Source: Chaetoderma sp. LZ-2023a
Taxonomy: Eukaryota; Mollusca; Caudofoveata; Chaetodermatida; Chaetodermatidae
Length of the DNA stretch: 64,000 nucleotides
Assembly: GCA_034401795.1 (NCBI GenBank)
Contig: CM067372.1
Coordinates: forward strand, 35,838,351-35,902,350
Direction of reading: 5' to 3'
The position numbers were made by a program, and so were the translations under genes. How positions within the stretch are numbered: the first letter of the stretch is position 1; every line of letters begins with the position of its first letter. The notes beneath the pieces are model-generated. The model had not been told where the DNA came from. It worked only from the letters and a program-made list of their open reading frames with translations, and ran no database searches. Positions 9,158 through 60,992 of the stretch are shown in pieces.

Positions 9158-9242
9158 ACACTGTTATAAGTAAAGTAGCCGAGAAATAACTCAACACATG
9201 ATATGATAAACTGAACAGGCAGCTTTCTGCTCACAAATACAT

Positions 9243-9797
9243 TGATTGGGACCAGGTCAAGATCAGGAATAACTTCAGATTGGTACCAGGTCAAGATCAG
9301 GAGTAACTTCAGATTGGTAACAGGTCAAGATCAGGAGTAACCTCAGATTGGTAACAGGTCAAGATCAGGAGTAACTTCAGATTGGTACCAGGTCAAGATC
9401 AGGAATAACTTCAGATTGGTACCAGGTCAAGATCAGAAGTAACTTCAGATTGGTAACAGGTCAAGACCAGGAGTAACTTCAGATTGGTACCAGGTCAAGA
9501 TCAGGAGTAACTTCAGATTGGTACCAGGTCAAGATCAGAAGTAACCTCAGATTGGTAACAGGTCAAGATCAGAAGTAACTTCAGATTGGTAACAGGTCAA
9601 GACCAGGAGTAACTTCAGATTGGTACCCGGTCAAGATCAGGAGTAACTTCAGATTGGGACCAGGTCAAGATCAGAGTAATTTCCGATTGGTACCAGGTCA
9701 AGATCAGAGTAACTTCAGATTGGGACCAGGTCAAGATCAGAGTAACTTCAGATTGGGACCAGGTCAAGATCAGAGTAATTTCCGATTGGTACCAGGG
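9243..9797. repeat. Minisatellite, 34-bp unit (16 copies)
   Basis: Tandem units GGTAACAGGTCAAGATCAGG plus AGTAACTTCAGATT. Two unit variants alternate (GGTACC and GGTAAC). From about 9650 the unit shortens to 33 bp by loss of one G, which changes the reading-frame relationship between units. Confidence 0.95.
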
Positions 9798-13887: not shown

Positions 13888-13948
13888 ATATTGTATACCA
13901 TAGCGCACATCTTCTATCTAAACACTTACCTCTCAAAGTGGCATTTGC

Positions 13949-14310
13949 AGTAGTCTTGAGAAACGCCATTTACAGAACAAAAGAACACATTTACAGAACA
14001 AAAGAACACATTTACAGAACAAAAGAACACATTTACAGAACAAAAGAACACATTTACAGAACAAAAGAACACATTTACAGAACAAAAGAACACATTTACA
14101 GAACAAAAGAACACATTTACAGAACAAAAGAACACATTTACAGAACAAAAGAACACATTTACAGAACAAAAGAACACATTTACAGAACAAAAGAACACAT
14201 TTACAGAACAAAAGAACACATTTACAGAACAAAAGAACACTATTTTTAAAAAGTTTTTAAATTTCCTACTGGAATGATTGGCTTTATAACAGACCCAGTC
14301 ATTCAATGGA
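13949..14310. repeat. M1 MITE left half containing a 21-bp minisatellite
   Basis: The left arm of an M1 element starts normally, then its arm segment 'catttacagaacaaaagaac' is repeated about 13 times (13968-14240). After that the M1 sequence resumes to GGCTTTATAACAGACCCAGTC. The matching right arm appears at 14690-14797, after an M2 copy and about 80 bp of other DNA. Confidence 0.85.
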
Positions 14311-25184: not shown

Positions 25185-26225
25185 TTATATGAATGAAGAT
25201 GATGAAGGACGAGAAGATGATGATGATGAATAAGGAATACGAGTCATGGTCCCTGAAATTACCTTATGAATGTTCTTATAGAAAAAGGAAGATGGTCCAG
25301 AATCTTTAAGATAGAAATTAATAAATATATTTTCTGATTTCCAGTTAGCAACTTGCATAATGTCATCTAGAGAAGATCCGTTAAAAAGGGCGCAAGAGGT
25401 GGCAAGGCTCCTAACATCATGGGCCTTAACACGCACTATAGCATTGTCCCCAGGGGAAGCCAATTCATGGCAAATTTTGATGGTATCGACTATCCAACGG
25501 GAAATAGTTGTTAAGGCGGCAGGATGATCCACACCTTCAGCAAATGTAACCCAAAGATGTCTATTGTTGGATTGTTTGGATTCAGTGTGAAGCTTATACA
25601 TATTAAGGTCCCTAACTGGGGACCAGACAGAATCATCTGGTGAAAGGGAATAAAGTTTATGAATTATAATAGGTTTATCCAAGAATTTAACTGACGGAGA
25701 TTTGGACAGAAATTCTGCCCTGGGATAGAGAATAATGTTATTCCCAGTAATCTGAAACCTATCTAATTCAGCAGAGAGAGCATGAATTTCAGAATGACGG
25801 CTGGCTGAAGCTACTGCTAACAGGAATACTGCTTTACGGGTAAGATGTTTCAAGCAAACAGAAACCAAACATTCAAAGTGTTTTCCTGCTAGAACCTGTA
25901 GAACAAGTGAAAGGTTCCAACTAGGCAGGGGTTTCTGAAAGGGGGGTCGAGAATTACCCATACCTCTAATAAGGTCATGAAAATGTATCTGAACGTGTAC
26001 TGATGGATCAATAAGACACTGAACAAAGGAGTTCAGATCAAAATGATAGGATCTGATAGTGTTAACTGAAAGTTTCTTCTGGTCAAAGAGGAAAACCAGA
26101 AAATCAGTGACGTGAGTTACAGAGGCCTCAGAGGGCGGGATAGAATGGTCTGAGCACCATTTTTTTAAAAACTCAAATCGAGCTTTATAAATGTTTCGAG
26201 TGGAAGACCCGATGGATTTCTCCAA
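25185..26225 (-). CDS. DIRS family 2 tyrosine recombinase (open, 346 codons)
   Basis: Integrase of a tyrosine-recombinase retrotransposon, expected to insert a circular DNA copy by strand exchange in the nucleus. The catalytic set is visible: Arg143 in ASASRHSE, His269 and Arg272 in AHDVRSLATS, Trp295 in ANWKSEN and Tyr305 in FINFYLKD. An N-terminal SAM-like core-binding segment (residues 1-60) precedes. The C-terminus ends in serine-rich PYSSSSSSRPSSSS, encoded by a GAT-type trinucleotide run. The frame opens at a non-ATG codon, and the upstream frame stays open for only about 14 codons with no Met. Translation therefore probably depended on the overlapping RNase H frame. This is the longest uninterrupted DIRS ORF in the window. 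Confidence 0.85.
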   Translation of the reverse strand: MEKSIGSSTRNIYKARFEFLKKWCSDHSIPPSEASVTHVTDFLVFLFDQKKLSVNTIRSYHFDLNSFVQCLIDPSVHVQIHFHDLIRGMGNSRPPFQKPLPSWNLSLVLQVLAGKHFECLVSVCLKHLTRKAVFLLAVASASRHSEIHALSAELDRFQITGNNIILYPRAEFLSKSPSVKFLDKPIIIHKLYSLSPDDSVWSPVRDLNMYKLHTESKQSNNRHLWVTFAEGVDHPAALTTISRWIVDTIKICHELASPGDNAIVRVKAHDVRSLATSCALFNGSSLDDIMQVANWKSENIFINFYLKDSGPSSFFYKNIHKVISGTMTRIPYSSSSSSRPSSSSFI

Positions 26226-26259
26226 AAGTTCTTGAGATCTGACTGAAAAGATTGACGAG

Positions 26260-27406
26260 GAAGGGGTCAGCTAGACAACTTGCACACTGACAGGCGAAAG
26301 ATTTCTGGATTTTGATGGCCTGCCTCTGTTCTGGGACATTAGATTGTGGGAGACAGGAAGAAGCAGAGGGAGAGCTACAAGAAGGTCCAGGAGATCTGGA
26401 AACCATGACTGACTCATCAAAGGAGCCCAAGGAATCACTTTTCTACTGAAACCATGAGGCTTATGATTCTGAGAAAGGATCTGGCCATAACTAATTGGCC
26501 TACCTTGAGAGCTTGAATTGTGGACATCAATGTCTGGTCATTGGAAAGGGAGGGGAATAACTTCCCCTGAGAGAGAAAGCTGCGGGACATGTACCAGTGA
26601 AGAACGCTCAGTGACTCTCGACAAATATAGACCGACCTGGACACACACACCTCCCCCTTGATGATAGAAGAATGAGACTACTGTGAAATGTCTGATTGGA
26701 TAAAGATTGAAAGACAGTGAATCAGGGGTTCCCAATGAACTATGGCATGGAAAAACCATCCACAGTTCTAAAGGGTTGACATGAAATGAAGATTCTGTGA
26801 GGGACCAGGATCCTGAAATCTTCTGGAGTCCCAGAAGGTGCCCCATCCTTGCAGGGAGGTATCCATGAAAAAGATGGCCTGAGGAGATGGTGGATGAAGA
26901 GGGACCCCAAATAACAGGGATTGACTGACTTTCCAGAACCGGCAATGGTTCATAAGTTGAAATTGATGAAAATCCAATGATTAAAAAATCTAGACTGATT
27001 CCAGTGGGTCATAAGATAGAACTGGAAGGAGTCCAAGGAATCACATTCTATACCTAAACCATGAGGCCTATGAATCTGAGGAAAGATCTGGCCAAAACTA
27101 ACTAGCCTACCTCGAGAGGTTGAATTGTGGTACTCGAGAGGTTGAATTGTGGATACCATTATCTGCACATTGGGAGGTAGTGAAATAACTTCCCCTGAGA
27201 GGTCGAAAGAGACCTCCAGGGGGGTAAAAACACAGACCAGAGGAACCTTTCCATAAAAAGATATTAAGTATAAAAAAGCAAACTTTGCAACCAGTAAGAC
27301 AAATATGGAAAGACAACCCCATCCCCCCCCCCCAAATCCCCACCCCACCCCCAACTCTATTAAGGATGATTATAATTCGATCCTGATTACAAAATGAAGT
27401 GTGCAC
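26260..27406 (-). pseudogene. DIRS family 2 RT connection / RNase H remnant, copy A
   Basis: Minus-strand frames read MDTSLQGWG (RNase H first acidic residue) near 26.9 kb, then HFMSTLLEL-like sequence. A further frame at 26430-26185 (SPGPSCSSPSASSCLPQS) overlaps the start of the recombinase. Frameshifts break it into at least four pieces. The region upstream that should hold the RT palm (YxDD) is missing; sequence beyond 27406 is noncoding. Confidence 0.75.
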
Positions 27407-41627: not shown

Positions 41628-41672
41628 TGACGTCACGCGGGTCGTCATATGACGTCAACAAAACTGACGTCA
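41628..41672 (+). promoter_or_regulatory. Cluster of three perfect CRE sites (TGACGTCA)
   Basis: TGACGTCA occurs at 41628-41635, 41650-41657 and 41665-41672, between the endonuclease stop and the zinc-finger ORF start (41738). CREB/ATF-type bZIP proteins bind this palindrome. Three in 45 bp is far above chance. It is likely part of a promoter for the downstream ORF; no TATA box is obvious. Confidence 0.65.
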
Positions 41673-41737
41673 TAAACGTAGTCATTACCCACTAGATCCA
41701 ACCTTCATCACTCCACGATATTAGTCTTACAAACAAC

Positions 41738-42751
41738 ATGTCTCGCTTCCAGTGCACCAAATGTGCCAGCACCTTTGCACACAGGAGTAGTCTAAAACGG
41801 CATAACATCACCGCACACACTGAACTACCGGCCTGGACATGCGACTGGTGCCTGGTCCCTCTAAAACGGACCGAATATGTGCGGGGCCATCTAGAGCGAC
41901 ACGGTTTAAATCGAGATAGAATCACCAAACTCATGGCAAACCCACGCCTGATTGAGGGTGTAAGGATCGTGGACCCCGGGCAACCATTAATAAAACCCAG
42001 GGTCTGCGATAAATTCGACTTCCACACCACTCAGAAGGTGAGTAAGAAAAAGACTGTGAGTTGGAAACTACCAGTGGCTTTCAACGGTCTCCTAAAGCCG
42101 AAAATAACGGGGTACAAGATCCCTAAGCGGAGTTCACCGACAAACAACTCCTATTATCGCGCAGACACTGACCACAAGCTAATCTCGGAAACACTCTCAA
42201 AATTATGTACATATGTGCCAGACGCAAACCGAGAGACAAATTCGCCGTTCCAACACTGGAAAATATACGAGACACACAGGTCTTCGAATCCTACCGACTG
42301 CCCGGTGACACACGCCAGCCAGACACCATTACAGCCCTCACCAGCGATGGCTTCCAGTTTGGATACAGACGCCAACACTATAAGCGTATCACCAGCCCTT
42401 TCACGCCCGATCTCGCCAGAACTCAGTGTCAGTGACGCTTACAACAATTTATTCAATTCTGACTCTTTAAAAACTTTAATTCATTCACCAACATCACCAT
42501 CTGTGTCACCTTCTCTAAGTCACCACGATTTAGATGAAGTCACCAGGCGAAATACAGACATTCGTGCAGCCAACACTCTCATCACGAACTTAGCGCCGGC
42601 TCACCGTTTTAATATTAACTGCCTGCACTGCTTTCTGACCATCCAAAGCCAGAACTCCATGGCGCCGGATCCTAAATGGGACAGGATGACGACACTAATG
42701 GGCTACATGTGTGCCCACATAGACTGGAGTCTCGCACACCTCCAGCTCTAG
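41738..42751 (+). CDS. C2H2 zinc-finger protein, 337 aa, unrecognised
   Basis: Intact ORF in otherwise decayed surroundings. Two N-terminal C2H2 fingers: CTKCASTFAHRSSLKRH...H (C-x2-C-x12-H-x4-H) and CDWCLVPLKRTEYVRGH..H (C-x2-C-x12-H-x3-H). A basic segment follows (VSKKKTVSWKLPV, PKITGYKIPKRSS), then a Ser/Thr/Pro-rich linker (residues ~190-270) and a C-terminal part with INCLHCFLTIQ and MTTLMGYMCAHIDWSLAHL. The ATG has an A at -3 (AACAACATGTC). It lies 246 bp downstream of the Penelope endonuclease stop on the same strand, so it may be an accessory nucleic-acid-binding ORF of that element or captured host sequence. Confidence 0.7.
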   Translation: MSRFQCTKCASTFAHRSSLKRHNITAHTELPAWTCDWCLVPLKRTEYVRGHLERHGLNRDRITKLMANPRLIEGVRIVDPGQPLIKPRVCDKFDFHTTQKVSKKKTVSWKLPVAFNGLLKPKITGYKIPKRSSPTNNSYYRADTDHKLISETLSKLCTYVPDANRETNSPFQHWKIYETHRSSNPTDCPVTHASQTPLQPSPAMASSLDTDANTISVSPALSRPISPELSVSDAYNNLFNSDSLKTLIHSPTSPSVSPSLSHHDLDEVTRRNTDIRAANTLITNLAPAHRFNINCLHCFLTIQSQNSMAPDPKWDRMTTLMGYMCAHIDWSLAHLQL

Positions 42752-53439: not shown

Positions 53440-54150
53440 TAATTAAGGAGTAGCATTTAAAATGGTTCTGGAAAGTTTAAAAACAATCCAAATGGCTACC
53501 TGCAAAAAATTTGACCAACTTAATTCTGAATACACGTTCTAGAGCCAGTACCACTATAGAATACTTCCAGCCAAATTTGAGTAAAATCCACCAAGCATTT
53601 ATGGAGTCAGATGCATTAAAATTTGCAGTAAATTTTTCGTAAAATCTATGATTTTCCCTTAAGAAACCGGCCCCTTAAAATTCTAAATATAGTTCCTGGA
53701 GCCTACCACGATAGCGTCTGCCCAACCAACTAGGGTTGAAATTTGTCAAGAGGTTAATGATGAGTAGCGTTTTTACTATCTCCGGTAAATACTTTTATAA
53801 AATCTAAGGTTTTCCCCCAAAAACTTGAGCAGTAAAAATTCTGTATACAACTTCCTCAGCCTTTCCCCATAGGGCCCTTCAAGCCAAAGAAATGTGAAAT
53901 CTGCCAAGCGGTTAATAAGGAGTAGCATTTTGATAATTTCCTGTAAATTTTTCATAACATTAAAGATTTTCACCCGAGAAATAAATTGACAATCATAATT
54001 CTGGTTAGATGTCCTGAAGCCTACCCTCATAGGGTCCTTCCGGCCATATTAGGTTGAAATGTGCCATGTGGTTAATGAGTAGTTGCATTTTAAAACAAAC
54101 GTTGACAGATGAACGACGGACGACAGATGGTCGCCATGCGTATCAGTGAC
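53440..54150. repeat. Diverged interspersed repeat with three 160-bp sub-units
   Basis: Sub-units share 'taaaatctatgattttccc' or 'taaaatctaaggttttccc', 'cctaccacgatag' and 'ggttaatgatgagtagc'. It ends in a GACGGACGACAGATGG tract, as do the bivalve repeats above, so it is probably a distant subfamily. Confidence 0.6.
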
Positions 54151-54645
54151 TGTAACATTTCACCTTTTGATCTAACGTCATTATGTGATGCCGTGCCATT
54201 ATAAAGAAGCATCAGTCCAAGTTTGGGTCCAGTATGATTAACCAAAACCTGAGATATAAACAGAAAAGTTGAGCTACATGAAAAATGTTAATGTTGAAAA
54301 AACAAAATTGTTATCAAGGTCACAGTGACCTTGACCTTTGGACCTCAACCTCATTGTGTCATGTCAGGTAATTTTAAGGAGGCATGTGTCCATGTTTGGG
54401 TGCAGGAAGATTAACAAAACCTAAGACATAAATAGAAAAGTTGAGCTAAATGGAAAATATTAACATTGAAAAAAGGTTTTTACCAAAATCATGGTGACCT
54501 TGACCTTTTGACCCCAATGTCATTATGAGATGCTGTGTCACTATAAGGAAGCATGAGTGCAAGTTTGGGTTCAGTATATCATTAAACAAACATGAGATAT
54601 AAACAGAAAAGTTTAGCTTTACGGAAAATGTTGATGTTGAAAGAA
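54150..54645 (+). repeat. 176-bp tandem repeat, left portion
   Basis: About three units, each with AAGGTCACAGTGACCTTGACC, 'aaggaagcatg', 'tttgggtccagtatgatta' and 'gagatataaacagaaaagtt'. The third unit is cut at GTTGAAAGAA by the 3.4-kb insertion and resumes at 58081. Confidence 0.85.
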
Positions 54646-54647
54646 TG

Positions 54648-54705
54648 TAGCTCGCCGGATAGCGTCGGGCCGTTCTGGTGTAGTATGTCGACTCGCCACG
54701 CCGAA
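54648..54705 (+). promoter_or_regulatory. tRNA-like head (A-box and B-box resemblance)
   Basis: TAGCTCGCCGGATAGCG resembles a tRNA D-arm with the pol III A box, and TGTCGACTCGCC about 40 bp later resembles a B box (consensus GGTTCGANTCC). The spacing suits pol III. It begins two bases inside the insertion. The opposite end also has CAGCTCAGCTGGTATGG. Similarity by eye only. Confidence 0.3.
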
Positions 54706-54743
54706 AGTGCACGACGAGTGATGATGCTGGTTAGCATCTGGTC

Positions 54744-54949
54744 TCAGGGTGACGGACCTTGTACGAGACTGAGCTGCGGGAAACAAAAACCGGCTCCTAA
54801 GGCGGTGGAACTAAATCGTTTCGGTGGGGCCGTGCGACCATCGTCGCGAACATTAAACACAACTGTCTCATCCCAAGAATTTGTGTCACCAGTATGCCTG
54901 TCCATAGCAATTTCGTGATCTATGGACTTACAAGATTTGATTTGGTAAC
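54744..54949 (-). other. Possible 3'-terminal coding exon of the insertion
   Basis: On the minus strand a TATATTTTTAG acceptor is followed by an open frame of about 68 codons. It contains SIDHEIAMDRHTGDTNSWDE and TVVFNVRDDGRTAPPKRFSS and ends at TGA about 100 bp before the element end. It is downstream of the heat-shock-like promoter on the same strand. No homolog recognised; may be chance. Confidence 0.25.
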
Positions 54950-54996
54950 CTAAAAATATAAGTCTATACAATGAGTTTACCTAAACAATTAAAAAT

Positions 54997-55140
54997 ATGC
55001 TAGATAATACTACAATAAGAGCATACAAAAATATGAGACAGAGACAGGTAGATGAACTTTTAAACATGGGGCTCCCGGAGGTACCACACAGACTTGTCGG
55101 TCCACAGAGGTATCCCCGCAAGGGAGGCTCCCGTACATGA
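54997..55140 (+). other. Small ORF, 47 aa, plus strand
   Basis: ATG to TGA frame with a mixed, soluble composition (MLDNTTIRAYKNMRQRQVDE, then LLNMGLPEVPHRLVGPQRYP). The 10-codon ORF immediately upstream (ATG at 54971) joins it after one frameshift. Unrecognised; orientation is opposite to the promoter at 57.6 kb. Confidence 0.2.
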
Positions 55141-55720
55141 GACATAGCTAGTTAACTTAATATAAGTTATTATACCTCTAAGATAAAAGGAAGAAGGCTA
55201 TCTCGGACGAAAAAGTGATGTGCCTCACGCGGGCACTACTCCTAGTGCTAGTTTGGGTGAGGAGTATTATCCTGGCATGGACCGTAGTCGCTGAATCCTT
55301 GTGAGAGGCAAGTGCCGCATGCAGGCCTCAGTCTCGGGAAGGTGTCGCCACTGCTTAAAGCGGAAGAAGAATAGTAGGCAAAAATGGGCCCACTAATATT
55401 TCAAACAAAAATGCTTTAGAAAGAAAAGACCATACCTAGTGAGATTATGACTATAGGAGTGCGTACTGTTTTACGTGAAGACGGGACGGGGAATTCCCGA
55501 TGGATTCCCTCATTACCATCTTATGTGATTCTTGGCATGCTGAATTAGTAGTTGCCGCTTTATGTATGCGGGCCTTCTGCTTTGCTTAATTCCACTTTAG
55601 TTGTCTTCAGAACAAGGATTATTTTAGGCCGCAACTGGCTGATATCTACCTAGCTATTAGAGACAGCTGTCACGGAGAACAGATGCCCTAAGACATCAAT
55701 ACTAAAGACAGCGCTCTTAC

Positions 55721-56325
55721 ATGTTACGTAGCAAGATCTCCGAACTGGATAAGAATCCGGACATCTCACCCTGTAACCACATAAAACATTACAAGACATG
55801 GGTTACATTTCACGAAAGCATTATTAGACCATTGTTCTATCGTTGTGGTGGGCGTAATAGAGACGAATACCCATGGTAAATGTCCTTCCTGTAAGGGCGT
55901 GGCAGATCTAAATATCATGCCCAGACATTTTAACGGAATTCGGTGGGGGCACGTATCTCGCCCATCACCGGGTCCTATGGAACTAACCGTTTTACCTGTC
56001 GTTAGGTTTATATACAAGTTGCCCAGTTTTGCACTGCGGTGCGGGAGGATTGTTCACTAAATAAAATAATAATTAAAACATGTGTTTTCGCAGTGCTTTC
56101 CTACATTGGCTTAAAGTACTATCTACTAAGTATTTGAAGATACACGGGAGTATATGTGATATCGCACCCTGGCCATTACCGCTCGGAAACCCGAATAGTT
56201 TCCCAGAGTCGGATCAGCCCATGATGCGGATGGGGACATCCAAACAATTAAGAAGCTACACAGCTGAGTGGAACACGAAGAGAGACAAAATCTTACTTAT
56301 GAGTCTTACCGGAGTGCGGGGCTAG
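55721..56325 (+). other. Run of short plus-strand ORFs in the insertion
   Basis: Three consecutive frames: a 52-codon ORF from 55721 (ISELDKNPDISPC..., RPLFYRCGGRNRDEYPW), a 71-codon ORF from 55845 with a KCPSCKG knuckle followed by two His (RHFNGIRWGH), and an 81-codon ORF from 56080. Each shifts frame from the last. This could be a decayed zinc-binding protein gene or chance in a GC-balanced stretch. Confidence 0.2.
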
Positions 56326-56900
56326 ATTATCGCACTACTGGAAGAGAAGGGTATACTACACAGTATGTAATGAAGAAAGTGTCGCTAATCATTTTGAACC
56401 TATCCTATTGAGCTAAATAGAAATGGTTTAGGCAGTAGCATGCCAGGCTAAACAGAGTTATAGCATGGACAGCGACCTCAGTGAAAAATTGTTGGTGGCG
56501 GGAGAAAGCGCTGCATATATAAGTGTTGCTGTATAGTGTTTCCTACGTGCACTGCAGTCCTATATTTTCTATGAATAAACAAAACATATGAACGGATGGC
56601 CACTGGCCATATATATACATAATCTAACCAGAACAATCAATACGGTGTCAAATGATCAAGATATATATAATAGTACAGGTTAACGAACCTACTATAGTGC
56701 GGTTAGCAACAGATAGAGGAAAATGAGAATAATTATCAACAAATACAGAAATTATAACTAGCGGTCCTAAGATGGTTACGGTTCCTTTTAGTCATCGGGA
56801 CCATTCTTACGGATAATATAATTAACAAAACCTATATAGAGAAATAATTAAACTGTGAAGTATAGTTACTTGAATACTTGGTAGTCATTCTAAAGTTAGG

Positions 56901-57035
56901 CTACCATGTTACTGAAATTGATACGTCAATCCGTAGTCGACGTGAGATGATGCGCTCTCCGGAAGCTGGAAAGTTCCTGCAGGTTGGTTGCCGCAAGCTG
57001 TTTTCCGCAAACAAGACTCCCGCAAGAATACTCAT
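56901..57035 (-). other. Short ORF, 44 aa, downstream of the heat-shock-like promoter
   Basis: Starts at an ATG in strong context (CCCACCATGAG) and reads MSILAGVLFAENSLRQPTCR onward to TAG. It lies 30 bp after the stop of the 96-codon ORF on the same strand. No family recognised. Confidence 0.2.
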
Positions 57036-57064
57036 GGTGGGAGGGATACATCACTCAGTGATGT

Positions 57065-57355
57065 CTAACGAGCAGTCAGCAAAAGATACGATAGTACTAC
57101 GTGGTGAAGAACGTTCCCGTACACCGATGGCATGGATGGAAGGTGTAAACAACCCGGTCCCAAGCGGGGGTTGTTAGAGGCAAATGAAGATACAAAACAA
57201 AGCTTCACGGTGCTGGGTACATCAGCCAGCTCTGAAGACGTACCGGGCAGTTTACTTGCTGCGGTCGAAAGTCGAAAGAACCTACACGATGTTAGTGCGG
57301 CGGAGGTTGAAATATCACACTTAGGCCTGGCCGGCAGATCCGGCGAGTCATCCAT
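57065..57355 (-). CDS. First sizeable ORF after the heat-shock-like promoter, 96 aa
   Basis: Minus-strand ATG at 57355, about 140 bases downstream of the predicted transcription start (near 57496), with only tiny upstream ORFs before it. It reads MDDSPDLPARPKCDISTSAA, then Ser/Thr-rich sequence, ending HHVVLSYLLLTAR. No motif, signal peptide or homolog is apparent. The opposite strand is also open here (57132-57437, 101 codons), so coding status is uncertain. The call rests on its place behind a well-formed promoter. Confidence 0.3.
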   Translation of the reverse strand: MDDSPDLPARPKCDISTSAALTSCRFFRLSTAASKLPGTSSELADVPSTVKLCFVSSFASNNPRLGPGCLHLPSMPSVYGNVLHHVVLSYLLLTAR

Positions 57356-57495
57356 CAAAGAGCATCCTGCCTCTACATCTGTAGACTCACATATTCAGGC
57401 CGTAAAGTGGGTTGGACAGCTGCAAGCTACAGGATAAAAAGCCGACACATAGCGAAGGAAAACGTGTATTGTCTGTCTCGCTTGTTAGTAGCTGG

Positions 57496-57663
57496 TACAG
57501 ATCACTGGATCGCATCTCCTTTTATACTCCTCGTGACATCACAGGTGCAGGCTTCCAACCAATCATCGTTTGAGCAACAGCCAATCAGTGCGTAGGTAAT
57601 AATAGCGCAGCCGAACGTTCTAGAACATTCTAGAAGTTTTGCGTACACGTGGTTATGACGTCA
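57496..57663 (-). promoter_or_regulatory. Heat-shock-type promoter, minus strand
   Basis: Reading minus: CRE TGACGTCA (57663-57656); E-box CACGTG (57651-57646); five perfect alternating heat-shock units (GAA/TTC every 5 bp) at 57635-57613; two CCAAT boxes (57585-57581 and 57563-57559, complementary orientation); and TATAAAAGGA at 57526-57517. The predicted start is near 57496. Heat-shock factor trimers bind three or more alternating nGAAn units, so five in register is a strong site. The order HSE, CCAAT, TATA is that of inducible Hsp70 promoters, but no chaperone coding follows. Confidence 0.8.
57613..57635. promoter_or_regulatory. Heat shock element, five perfect nGAAn units
   Basis: GAACGTTCTAGAACATTC continues with TAGAA: the trinucleotides alternate GAA, TTC, GAA, TTC, GAA with 2-base spacers and no mismatch. 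Confidence 0.9.
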
Positions 57664-58080
57664 CAGCAATATTTTGAAGATAATCATGAATAGTTTTCCA
57701 TGGATAACTCAGCCATTTCTCAACCGATTTTGAAATGGTTTACAGATTTGAAAAGCCCGTTGAATTCTGGTCTTGATTAATGCCAGACTTAATGGGAACA
57801 GGCAATCAATAAGGATTACAGGGTACCATCTCGGTACACTAAAAGCGCCATCCTATCTTGGTCGTAATGACATGCTCCATCAAAACAGCGTCCGGGCGTG
57901 TGCATGCGCATTATGCGTTTTAACGAACTTGTTCGTTTTTCAACACACTATCTCTCCCATAGGCCTATATACGCTTATGGCTCTACCCAGGGGGGCGTGT
58001 TCAAGAAACGAATCCAGGACGGCGGCGCATACCCAGCTCAGCTGGTATGGCCGGTATCCGACCAGTCGATCCGAACTACA

Positions 58081-58240
58081 AGAACAAGGTTTTTACCAAG
58101 GTTACTGTGACCTTGACCTTTGGACTCGAACATCTTTTTGAGATGCCAGGTCATTATAAGGAAGCATGTGCCCAAGTTTGGGTCCAGTATGCTTAACTAA
58201 ACCTGAATTATAAACAGAAAAGTAGAGCTAAACGCAAATT
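58081..58240 (+). repeat. 176-bp tandem repeat, right portion
   Basis: Resumes mid-unit with AGAACAAGGTTTTTACC, then TTACTGTGACCTTGACC and 'tttgggtccagtatgctta'. It is the continuation of the unit interrupted at 54645. Confidence 0.85.
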
Positions 58241-58334
58241 GAATGCTGACGACACCACCACTGCCTCTGCCACCTGTGACCGTCGCTGGCACCAGCGCCG
58301 GCGGATGTGCAAGGTATCGCAATAGCTCATTTTA

Positions 58335-58520
58335 ATTCGTAACTTCGAGCTAAAAATCAGCCAAAATCTAATATGGCTGCTAGCAAACTTGAATCTCTAT
58401 GCCCTAAGGATACTCCATGCAAAATATAATTGAAATCGGCTCAGTGGTTCTTGAGAAGTCGCTTAAATGAAAAGTTGGCAGTTGGCAGATGACAGATGGA
58501 TGATGGAAGGATGGACGACG
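58335..58520 (+). repeat. CTCACCTGG-type repeat, 3' fragment
   Basis: Has 'gaatctctatgccctaagga', 'tataattgaaatcggctcag' and a GATGGAAGGATGGACGACGG tract but neither terminus. Confidence 0.65.
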
Positions 58521-58679
58521 GGCAGACGATGTTAGTTTACACTGAGGACAACATATTTATAATTGGTATTCCATTTGGGCATGCGCATCTTTCGCCGCTG
58601 CCTTCACACCGCAAAGTCACAAGACATTTAGCATGTACAATTGTCTAAAAATATTCAGATATCTTGATATTTCGAGCTT

Positions 58680-59812: not shown

Positions 59813-59994
59813 TACAAACGCTTTGTGTATAAGCGCATAATACTGGATGTCTGTTCTCTTGTCATGGACATATTCAAAATTATGACATTTTGAGTAAAGT
59901 AGGTTAAGTGATAACTATGAGCTACGACAAACTAGTTGCATGCACACATTCAATGTTCCCTCTAGTTTCTAAGTCATGAACATAAATGAAGAGT

Positions 59995-60782
59995 TCATCA
60001 GCCTTTAGTTACCTCTATACCTTGTGACTCATAATGCCATAAGGCAGGCATCATCAACCTTTACTTACCTCTATACCTTGTGACTCATAATGCCATAAGG
60101 CAGGCATCATCAACCTTTACTTACCTCTATACCTTGTGACTCATAATGCCATAAGGCAGGCATCATCAACCTTTACTTACCTCTATACCTTGTGACTCAT
60201 AATGCCATAAGGCAGGCATCATCAGCTTTTACTTACCTCTATACCTTGTGACTCATAACACCATAAGGCAGGCATCATTAGCCTTTACTTACCTCTATAC
60301 CTTGTGACTCATAACACTAAAAGGCTGGCATCATCAGCCTTTACTTACCTCTATACCTTGTGACTCATAGCGCCATAAGGCAGGCATCATCAGCCTTTAC
60401 TTACCTCTATACCTTGTGACTCATAACACTAAAAGGCTGGCATCATCAGCCTTTACTTACCTCTATACCTTGTGACTCATAGCGCCATAAGGCAGGCATC
60501 ATCAGCCTTTACTTACCTCTATACCTTGTGACTCATAACACTAAAAGGCTGGCATCATCAGCCTTTACTTACCTCTATACCTTGTGACTCATAGCGCCAT
60601 AAGGCAGGCATCATCAGCCTTTACTTACCTCTATACCTTGTGACTCATAACACTAAAAGGCTGGCATCATCAGCCTTTACTTACCTCTATACCTTGTGAC
60701 TCATAGCGCCATAAGGCAGGCATCATCAGCCTTTACTTACCTCTATACCTTGTGACTCATAACACCAAAAGGCTGGCATAAT
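59995..60782. repeat. 56-bp minisatellite, 14 units, with 112-bp higher-order repeat
   Basis: Unit phrase 'cctttacttacctctatacc' plus 'ttgtgactcataatgccata' plus 'aggcaggcatcatcaa'. The first four units are near identical. From about 60240 two variants alternate (AACACTAAAAGGCTGG and AGCGCCATAAGGCAGG), giving a 112-bp dimer repeated four times. Every unit carries TGACTCA and, on the minus strand, GAGGTAAGTAAAG. Confidence 0.95.
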
Positions 60783-60794
60783 AACGTAACAAAT

Positions 60795-60992
60795 CCTTAA
60801 CTTAATCAACAGTTCCAGGGACTGCAGACATTTTGCCATGTATGTCTATCATTTAACCAATGGCTTACAACCGGGCTAGTTATTCCAGTGTAAAATGTTT
60901 AAAAATTGTCTACTCTTGGACTGCAAATTTAGATTGACTAAACAAAACTCAAGATCTTGATTTTCCTGACCAATGTTGACCATTAAAGGTTT
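60795..60992. repeat. M1 fold-back copy, diverged
   Basis: The right arm keeps TCTACTCTTGGACTGCAAAT and GACCATTAAAGG. The left arm is heavily altered. Confidence 0.5.

Follow-up and report, generated by a model that had tools for sequence, protein, structure and literature searches.

A cluster of heat-shock-type promoter motifs in the window (the whole 64,000-nucleotide stretch of Chaetoderma DNA analyzed here) probably serves as the U3 promoter in a Ty3/gypsy LTR retrotransposon of high copy number, represented in the window by a solo LTR and driven by HSF under heat or proteotoxic stress. On sequence evidence, the window contains a solo LTR with these motifs as its U3 promoter, and the parent element is a high-copy Ty3/gypsy LTR retrotransposon with an LTR of ca. 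3.5 kb (3435 to 3616 bp in eight copies). The best reading of the LTR would be that it is ONSEN-like and HSF driven, having arisen by convergence, and we infer that it is heat inducible. The case for a probable function draws on the ordered motifs, on the four to five units usually present despite a shift of register, and on analogy; decay rates form no part of it.

All the motifs listed in the original prediction were found on the minus strand, in the predicted order: a CRE (CRE 1, TGACGTCA, 57656-57663), a CACGTG E-box (57646-57651), a five-unit HSE (TTCTAGAATGTTCTAGAACGTTC, 57613-57635), two CCAAT boxes (57581-57585 and 57559-57563), and the TATA box (TATAAAAGG, 57518-57526), which lies 555 bp into the LTR. 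As a correction, both CCAAT boxes are inverted, reading ATTGG in the sense of the promoter. The units of the HSE are all perfect and alternate between TTC and GAA, the whole being built as TTCTAGAAnn twice and then TTC, and the HSE precedes the TATA box by 86 bp. With five adjacent nGAAn units near a TATA box within an LTR, the promoter has the arrangement of the ONSEN type, for which at least four are expected. A second CRE near the TATA box (CRE 2, 57534-57541, minus strand) reads TGATGTCA in the window copy, while 27 of 42 aligned sequences have TGACGTCA followed by C or T and G. The cluster occupies 418 to 563 bp into the element. Judging from the position of the TATA box, transcription would start ca. 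30 bp further on, at 57485-57500 on the minus strand, which would mark the U3-R border, and the remaining ca. 2.85 kb of the LTR would be R-U5.

The insertion that carries the cluster spans 54646-58080 on the minus strand (3435 bp, TGTAG...CTACA). A 3.4-kb insertion of no assigned class had been predicted at 54.6-57.7 kb; the insertion itself stands, with a corrected extent and its class now given as a solo Ty3/gypsy LTR. It is bordered by a target-site duplication, AGAA, at 54642-54645 and 58081-58084, and its flanks, when joined, match an uninterrupted neighboring repeat (54159-54450) with 81% identity. Seven other complete LTR copies measured 3470 to 3616 bp. Among the 20 sibling loci compared with the window element, 18 have ca. 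90 to 110 bp extra at a site read off their match coordinates as 57407-57408; the ca. 109 bp missing from the window copy thus lie ca. 110 bp after the TATA box. Recombination of a full element presumably gave rise to the solo LTR in the window. The surroundings of the insertion are largely repeats. The proposal of a mobile element carrying a heat-shock-type promoter of its own agrees with the LTR ends, the 4-bp duplication, and the retention of the promoter in sibling copies.

The absence of Hsp coding sequence, also claimed originally, was borne out. The promoter drives no Hsp70 coding sequence, the longest stop-to-stop minus-strand frame in the insertion having 109 codons (57065-57394) and no Pfam match. 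Twelve minus-strand frames with at least 50 codons lie within or across the LTR; Pfam scans of ten of them gave no match, and an Rfam search of 54000-58600 gave none either. A missing chaperone is to be expected of a solo LTR, since an LTR promoter of this type drives the genomic RNA of its element. Neither AATAAA nor ATTAAA occurs on the sense strand of the window LTR, which we count against the preferred reading as regards the RNA 3' end.

The assignment of the parent element is based on its sibling loci. At a locus on C6, TG...CA-ended direct LTRs flank an internal region, the tail of the 5' LTR (L031) and the 3' LTR (L025) lying around ca. 9 kb of internal DNA and sharing 93% identity in one stretch (740 bp) and 88% in another (125 bp). 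Target duplications were sought in the range of 4 to 6 bp; apart from AGAA in the window, exact 4-bp duplications were seen at L019 (AAAG) and L024 (GTTA), that is, in two of the seven other copies that were read at both ends and are without the polypurine-tract flank, and were absent in the other five. Directly after CTACA, at one locus (L031), stands AGTGGCGCCCGATGTGGGCC, which we take to resemble a tRNA-Lys primer site, and 5 of the 16 copies read at the right end show a polypurine-tract flank of the AGGAGGGGGTGG type on the element's strand. The order reverse transcriptase, RNase H, integrase, with a gypsy-type reverse transcriptase, was found on one internal copy (L032), where RVT_1 (1e-23) and RT_RNaseH_2 (5e-28) were above their cut-offs, rve (0.0025), further on, was below its curated cut-off, and a protease match (2e-4) was also below cut-off. 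The reverse transcriptase had 869 relatives at an E value of ≤0.001; the named ones among the best 120 were Pol polyproteins, some of them labeled "17.6," and transposon 17.6 is, we assume, of the gypsy type.

Some further features of the element and of the window are recorded here. A frame near the 3' end of the element, after pol, with a cysteine/histidine-rich start, is a candidate accessory gene (7643-8653 in L032; 6837-7136 and 9046-9708 in L033); Pfam matches of these frames were absent or subthreshold. L029 and L030 are LTR-internal-LTR arrangements, nested or tandem, with short internal regions. In the window, CREs were more frequent than expected (6 versus 0.47), five of the six being outside the motif cluster; three TGACGTCA CREs fall within 45 bp (41628-41672), just upstream of a 338-amino-acid frame (41735-42751, plus strand) with a weak, subthreshold C2H2 zinc-finger match. 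Kinship between this frame and the 3' frame of the element was considered and found unsupported. A 361-amino-acid frame at 25185-26270 (minus strand) has a phage-integrase SAM-like domain and presumably comes from a DIRS-type tyrosine-recombinase element. Tandem arrays lie at 9176-9753 (34-bp period), 13904-14303 (21-bp period), and 59883-60910 (56-bp period).

The fate of the HSE in other copies was followed in several samples. A search with the promoter as the query, in which matches of <100 bp were dropped, gave 39 other places that, with two internal-region loci, made 41 copies plus the window, a set biased by its query; the internal pieces L031 to L033 contributed none. Five HSE units were counted in 25 of these 42 sequences, four in 8, three in 7, and two in 2. 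By exact pattern, the other motifs were intact in 32 (CRE 1), 29 (CACGTG), 41 and 39 (the two CCAAT boxes), 27 (CRE 2), and 33 (TATAAAAGG) of the 42. A second set came from a query at the far end of the LTR, blind to the promoter, from which the first 20 of 39 other places were taken; one copy is common to the two sets (L070, the same as L034). The promoter was seen in the fetched stretch of 15 of these 20 copies, with five units in 10, three in 3, and fewer in 2. Within subfamily 2 (seed L029, first 20 of 39 other places, HSE contained in the query), there were five units in 14 copies, four in 1, three in 4, and two in 1. The check proposed at the outset, whether other copies keep the HSE, thus came out positive, in both sets and in subfamily 2 as well as in subfamily 4 and the genome-wide sample described below.

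A third group with the HSE, subfamily 4, was sampled from seed L126 as 12 of the first 15 other places, the HSE again being contained in the query and kinship being judged on the promoter stretch alone. Eight of its copies have five units and four have four. None of the 12 has the 3' TTC unit seen in subfamilies 1 and 2, and 9 have a 5' GAA unit, giving the register GAA-TTC-GAA-TTC-GAA; the number of units is thus roughly maintained despite the moved register. Subfamily 3 (seed L109, first 12 of 39 other places) had no HSE in any of the 12 copies read and never more than one unit. Its two ATTGG boxes are intact in 9 copies, an exact CRE is present in 7, and TATAAAA is present in 11, all in register with the other subfamilies. 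The slot of the HSE is filled in subfamily 3 (L110 to L121) by CACGTGA- and CCACGTCAC-like sequence, which to us resembles UPR/CRE-type sites. Three of the four subfamilies examined have the full promoter, with CRE, E-box, HSE, two inverted CCAAT boxes, CRE, and TATA.

Over the LTR, L029 had 71 to 73% identity to six subfamily 1 copies. Over 1,673 shared LTR columns, the identity to subfamily 1 copies was 76 to 78% for L029 and 61 to 62% for L109, and the two seeds were 62% identical to each other. Promoter identities, from ca. 180 columns and one or two copies per subfamily, were 0.85 between subfamilies 1 and 2, 0.75 to 0.76 between 4 and 3, 0.70 to 0.72 between 4 and 1 or 2, and 0.67 between 3 and 1 or 2. 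As an identity comparison rather than a tree, these values suggest the grouping ((1,2),(3,4)), under which an ancestral HSE with loss in subfamily 3 would be the simplest history. A gain of the HSE in subfamilies 1 and 2 had been considered and was replaced by this loss once subfamily 4 came in.

These results bear on the alternative that survives best, that the LTR has a general CRE/CCAAT/TATA promoter to which the HSE contributes little, having spread passively with the LTR. Subfamily 3, which mostly keeps CRE, CCAAT, and TATA, reached at least 40 copies, so the HSE is unnecessary for spread. The HSE core is also not exceptionally intact within subfamily 1, where its 15 bases are unchanged in 12 of 20 copies, a value equaled or beaten by 18% of LTR start positions and matched or exceeded by 26% of CpG-free ones; unusually slow decay of the HSE was tested for in this way, and constraint was unsupported. 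The block from CRE to TATA had 84 to 88% identity between subfamily 1 and L029, compared with 71 to 73% for the whole LTR, and this level was reached by 6.5 to 8.6% of other LTR windows (the comparison took six of eight copies, the other two being without an anchoring motif). Against passive spread, four to five units are usual in subfamilies 1, 2, and 4, even though the end unit was swapped in subfamily 4. On balance, we consider a passive HSE unlikely.

If the LTR promoter is HSF driven, as we prefer to read it, heat or proteotoxic stress would recruit HSF trimers to the five-unit HSE, with the core promoter kept open by the factors of the CRE and CCAAT sites. Transcription by RNA polymerase II would then begin ca. 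30 bp after the TATA box, and the LTR transcript would serve as the genomic RNA for reverse transcription. Expression of the element would in this manner be timed through the stress response of the host, as that of ONSEN is in Arabidopsis, and each solo LTR, the window copy among them, would persist as a potential promoter responsive to heat.

The window copy could, in addition, have been adopted as the promoter of a neighboring gene or of a noncoding stress RNA, and its HSE, CRE 1, CCAAT boxes, and TATA box are all intact. Nevertheless, it has an altered CRE 2, the loss of ca. 109 bp after the TATA box, and no marks that distinguish it from its siblings, and these points, together with the ten scanned frames that gave no Pfam match and the largely repetitive neighborhood, make adoption very unlikely.

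The original prediction also held that the cluster matches the architecture of inducible Hsp70 promoters, and one alternative is a promoter captured from a host hsp70 gene. A PF00012 search gave 57 matches, and the upstream 1 kb was taken for six near-complete or long ones; for three of the six, 4 kb more of upstream DNA was examined, and for the sixth candidate (C7:72872819), the upstream 1 kb only. In two of the genes (C7:72068992 and C12:120960908), a sequence resembling a 3' splice site precedes the ATG, and their promoter motifs, ca. 2.0 and 2.6 kb upstream of it, respectively, are ATTGG, ACGTCA, a three-unit HSE, and TATAAA. The kinds of motif claimed are thus indeed those of hsp70 promoters, and this sharing (ATTGG, CRE-like ACGTCA, HSE, and TATA) is what favors capture. 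The rest of the resemblance fails, as the order and spacing differ between the LTR and these two promoters, the HSE has five units in the LTR and three in both genes, and the LTR promoter could not be aligned with either of them. Comparison of the upstream stretches L107 and L108 with the LTR gave only low-complexity or chance-level matches of 17 to 26 bp, none spanning the promoter, and the longest match of the 1-kb upstream pieces (45 bp, 78%) was T-rich and outside the promoter. Judging from the two host hsp70 promoters located, capture from hsp70 is, we believe, extremely improbable.

A third hsp70 frame (C7:72860590) had no such promoter within 5 kb upstream. L109 (C7:72855610-72859610), a divergent subfamily 3 LTR in the sense orientation, ends ca. 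1.2 kb upstream of its start codon. Relative to its siblings, L109 is missing the promoter block, and a single run of three units lies within this LTR, downstream of the TATA box; the idea that it is a heat-shock LTR driving hsp70 was dropped because it is a subfamily 3 copy without that block. Two more of the six candidates, on contigs C19 and C2688, are dnaK frames that, as judged by eye, follow closely on a GrpE-like frame; these contigs look bacterial and would come from a symbiont or a contaminant in the assembly.

Counts over the 2.44-Gb genome gave 5,071 occurrences of the exact five-unit pattern TTCnnGAAnnTTCnnGAAnnTTC (2,526 plus 2,545), compared with 17 for the same pattern read backwards; this pattern is one of two five-unit registers, the other being GAA-first, so that the count is a minimum for HSEs of this size. 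Among the first 100 places listed, all within the first 49 Mb of one contig, 98 HSEs start with TTCTAGAA. Fourteen HSEs sampled across this list, including both that start otherwise, were all inside this LTR, and 12 of them align to the promoter in sense; of the other two, one is a six-unit copy read on the opposite strand, and one led to subfamily 4. The double-CCAAT signature of the LTR, which fits all four subfamilies, occurs 6,300 times in the genome (control, 0). The range covered by both lists contains 83 of the HSEs, and 48 of these have the signature on the same strand at a fixed offset (in 47 cases with no shift at all); a perfect HSE was found at 48 of the 100 double-CCAAT signatures listed.

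In the window, the exact five-unit HSE occurs once, and allowing up to two mismatches gave three overlapping matches, all inside the element, compared with 0.24 expected. A chance cluster of motifs, which could appeal to the near-chance window counts of TATAAAAG (9 versus 5.05 expected) and CACGTG (5 versus 4.9) taken singly, is refuted by the conservation among copies, the 5,071 exact HSEs versus 17 in the control, and the fixed spacing to the CCAAT pair at which the ordered cluster reappears in many copies, and its probability is practically nil. More speculatively, and as a proposal that we doubt more than we trust, the LTR family may have supplied nearly all perfect five-unit HSF sites of the genome (ca. 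99.7% if the backwards control represents chance), and competition among sister subfamilies would run through the exchange of stress inputs at a single promoter position, filled by the HSE in 1, 2, and 4 and, in 3, by a UPR-type block rich in CACGTG/ACGTCA.

To put this LTR into perspective, we compared it with known systems. What it has in common with ONSEN/COPIA78 and the heat-responsive COPIA elements of Brassicaceae is the presence of at least four nGAAn units, a strong element made of a doubled nTTCnnGAAn protounit, and the existence of related copies or families without the element (PMC3907296, PMC5059998). In plants, LTRs with at least four such units accumulate transcripts up to a thousand-fold, and those with three up to a hundred-fold; the route described for the ONSEN HSE is duplication of an nTTCnnGAAn protoelement (PMC5059998), which the doubled TTCTAGAAnn of the present LTR resembles, although here the route is deduced from the repeat alone. 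Without HSFA2, ONSEN is activated far less strongly (PMC3907296), and ONSEN fragments and solo LTRs in Arabidopsis are described as lacking both functional elements and a heat response (PMC5059998). Whereas ONSEN is a plant Ty1/copia element with published heat induction (PMC3907296, PMC5059998), the one described here, from an animal, is predicted from its sequence to be heat inducible and falls outside the COPIA78 family, its pol matches and their order being of the Ty3/gypsy type; it differs further in its five units, its LTR of ca. 3.5 kb, and its thousands of HSE-bearing sites.

Outside plants, the copia and gypsy LTRs of Drosophila are similar in being animal LTR retrotransposons with HSF-type sites (PMC3907296, PMC10745035), but these are single, predicted, and weak (PMC10745035). 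Helitrons of Caenorhabditis likewise scatter HSEs through an animal genome, accounting for up to 46.2% of those in C. elegans; they are, however, DNA transposons, and any HSE was counted (PMC6927752), while our figures concern only the five-unit class and the promoter of an LTR. DIRS-1 of Dictyostelium has a heat-shock promoter in the terminal repeats of a retroelement, but the repeats are inverted, the element is of the DIRS type, and the host is a slime mold (cited in PMC2685390). Cryptococcus TCN3 and TCN12 have putative HSEs in their LTRs and more mobilization at 37°C, but they are fungal and have one (TCN12) or two (TCN3) such elements (PMC12810828). An HSE of four or five units in an LTR element of an animal did not appear in the titles and abstract openings found, among which the subscription literature was thinly covered. 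Heat-switched LTR promoters this strong are already known in plants, and the animal cases found in our searches comprise weak sites in LTRs and a DNA transposon. What we offer is an animal element with a five-unit HSE in thousands of copies, whose sister promoters, differing in the presence, register, and loss of the HSE, are natural built-in controls. With them, it becomes directly testable whether a retroelement gains from the heat shock response of its host and whether that response changes alongside.
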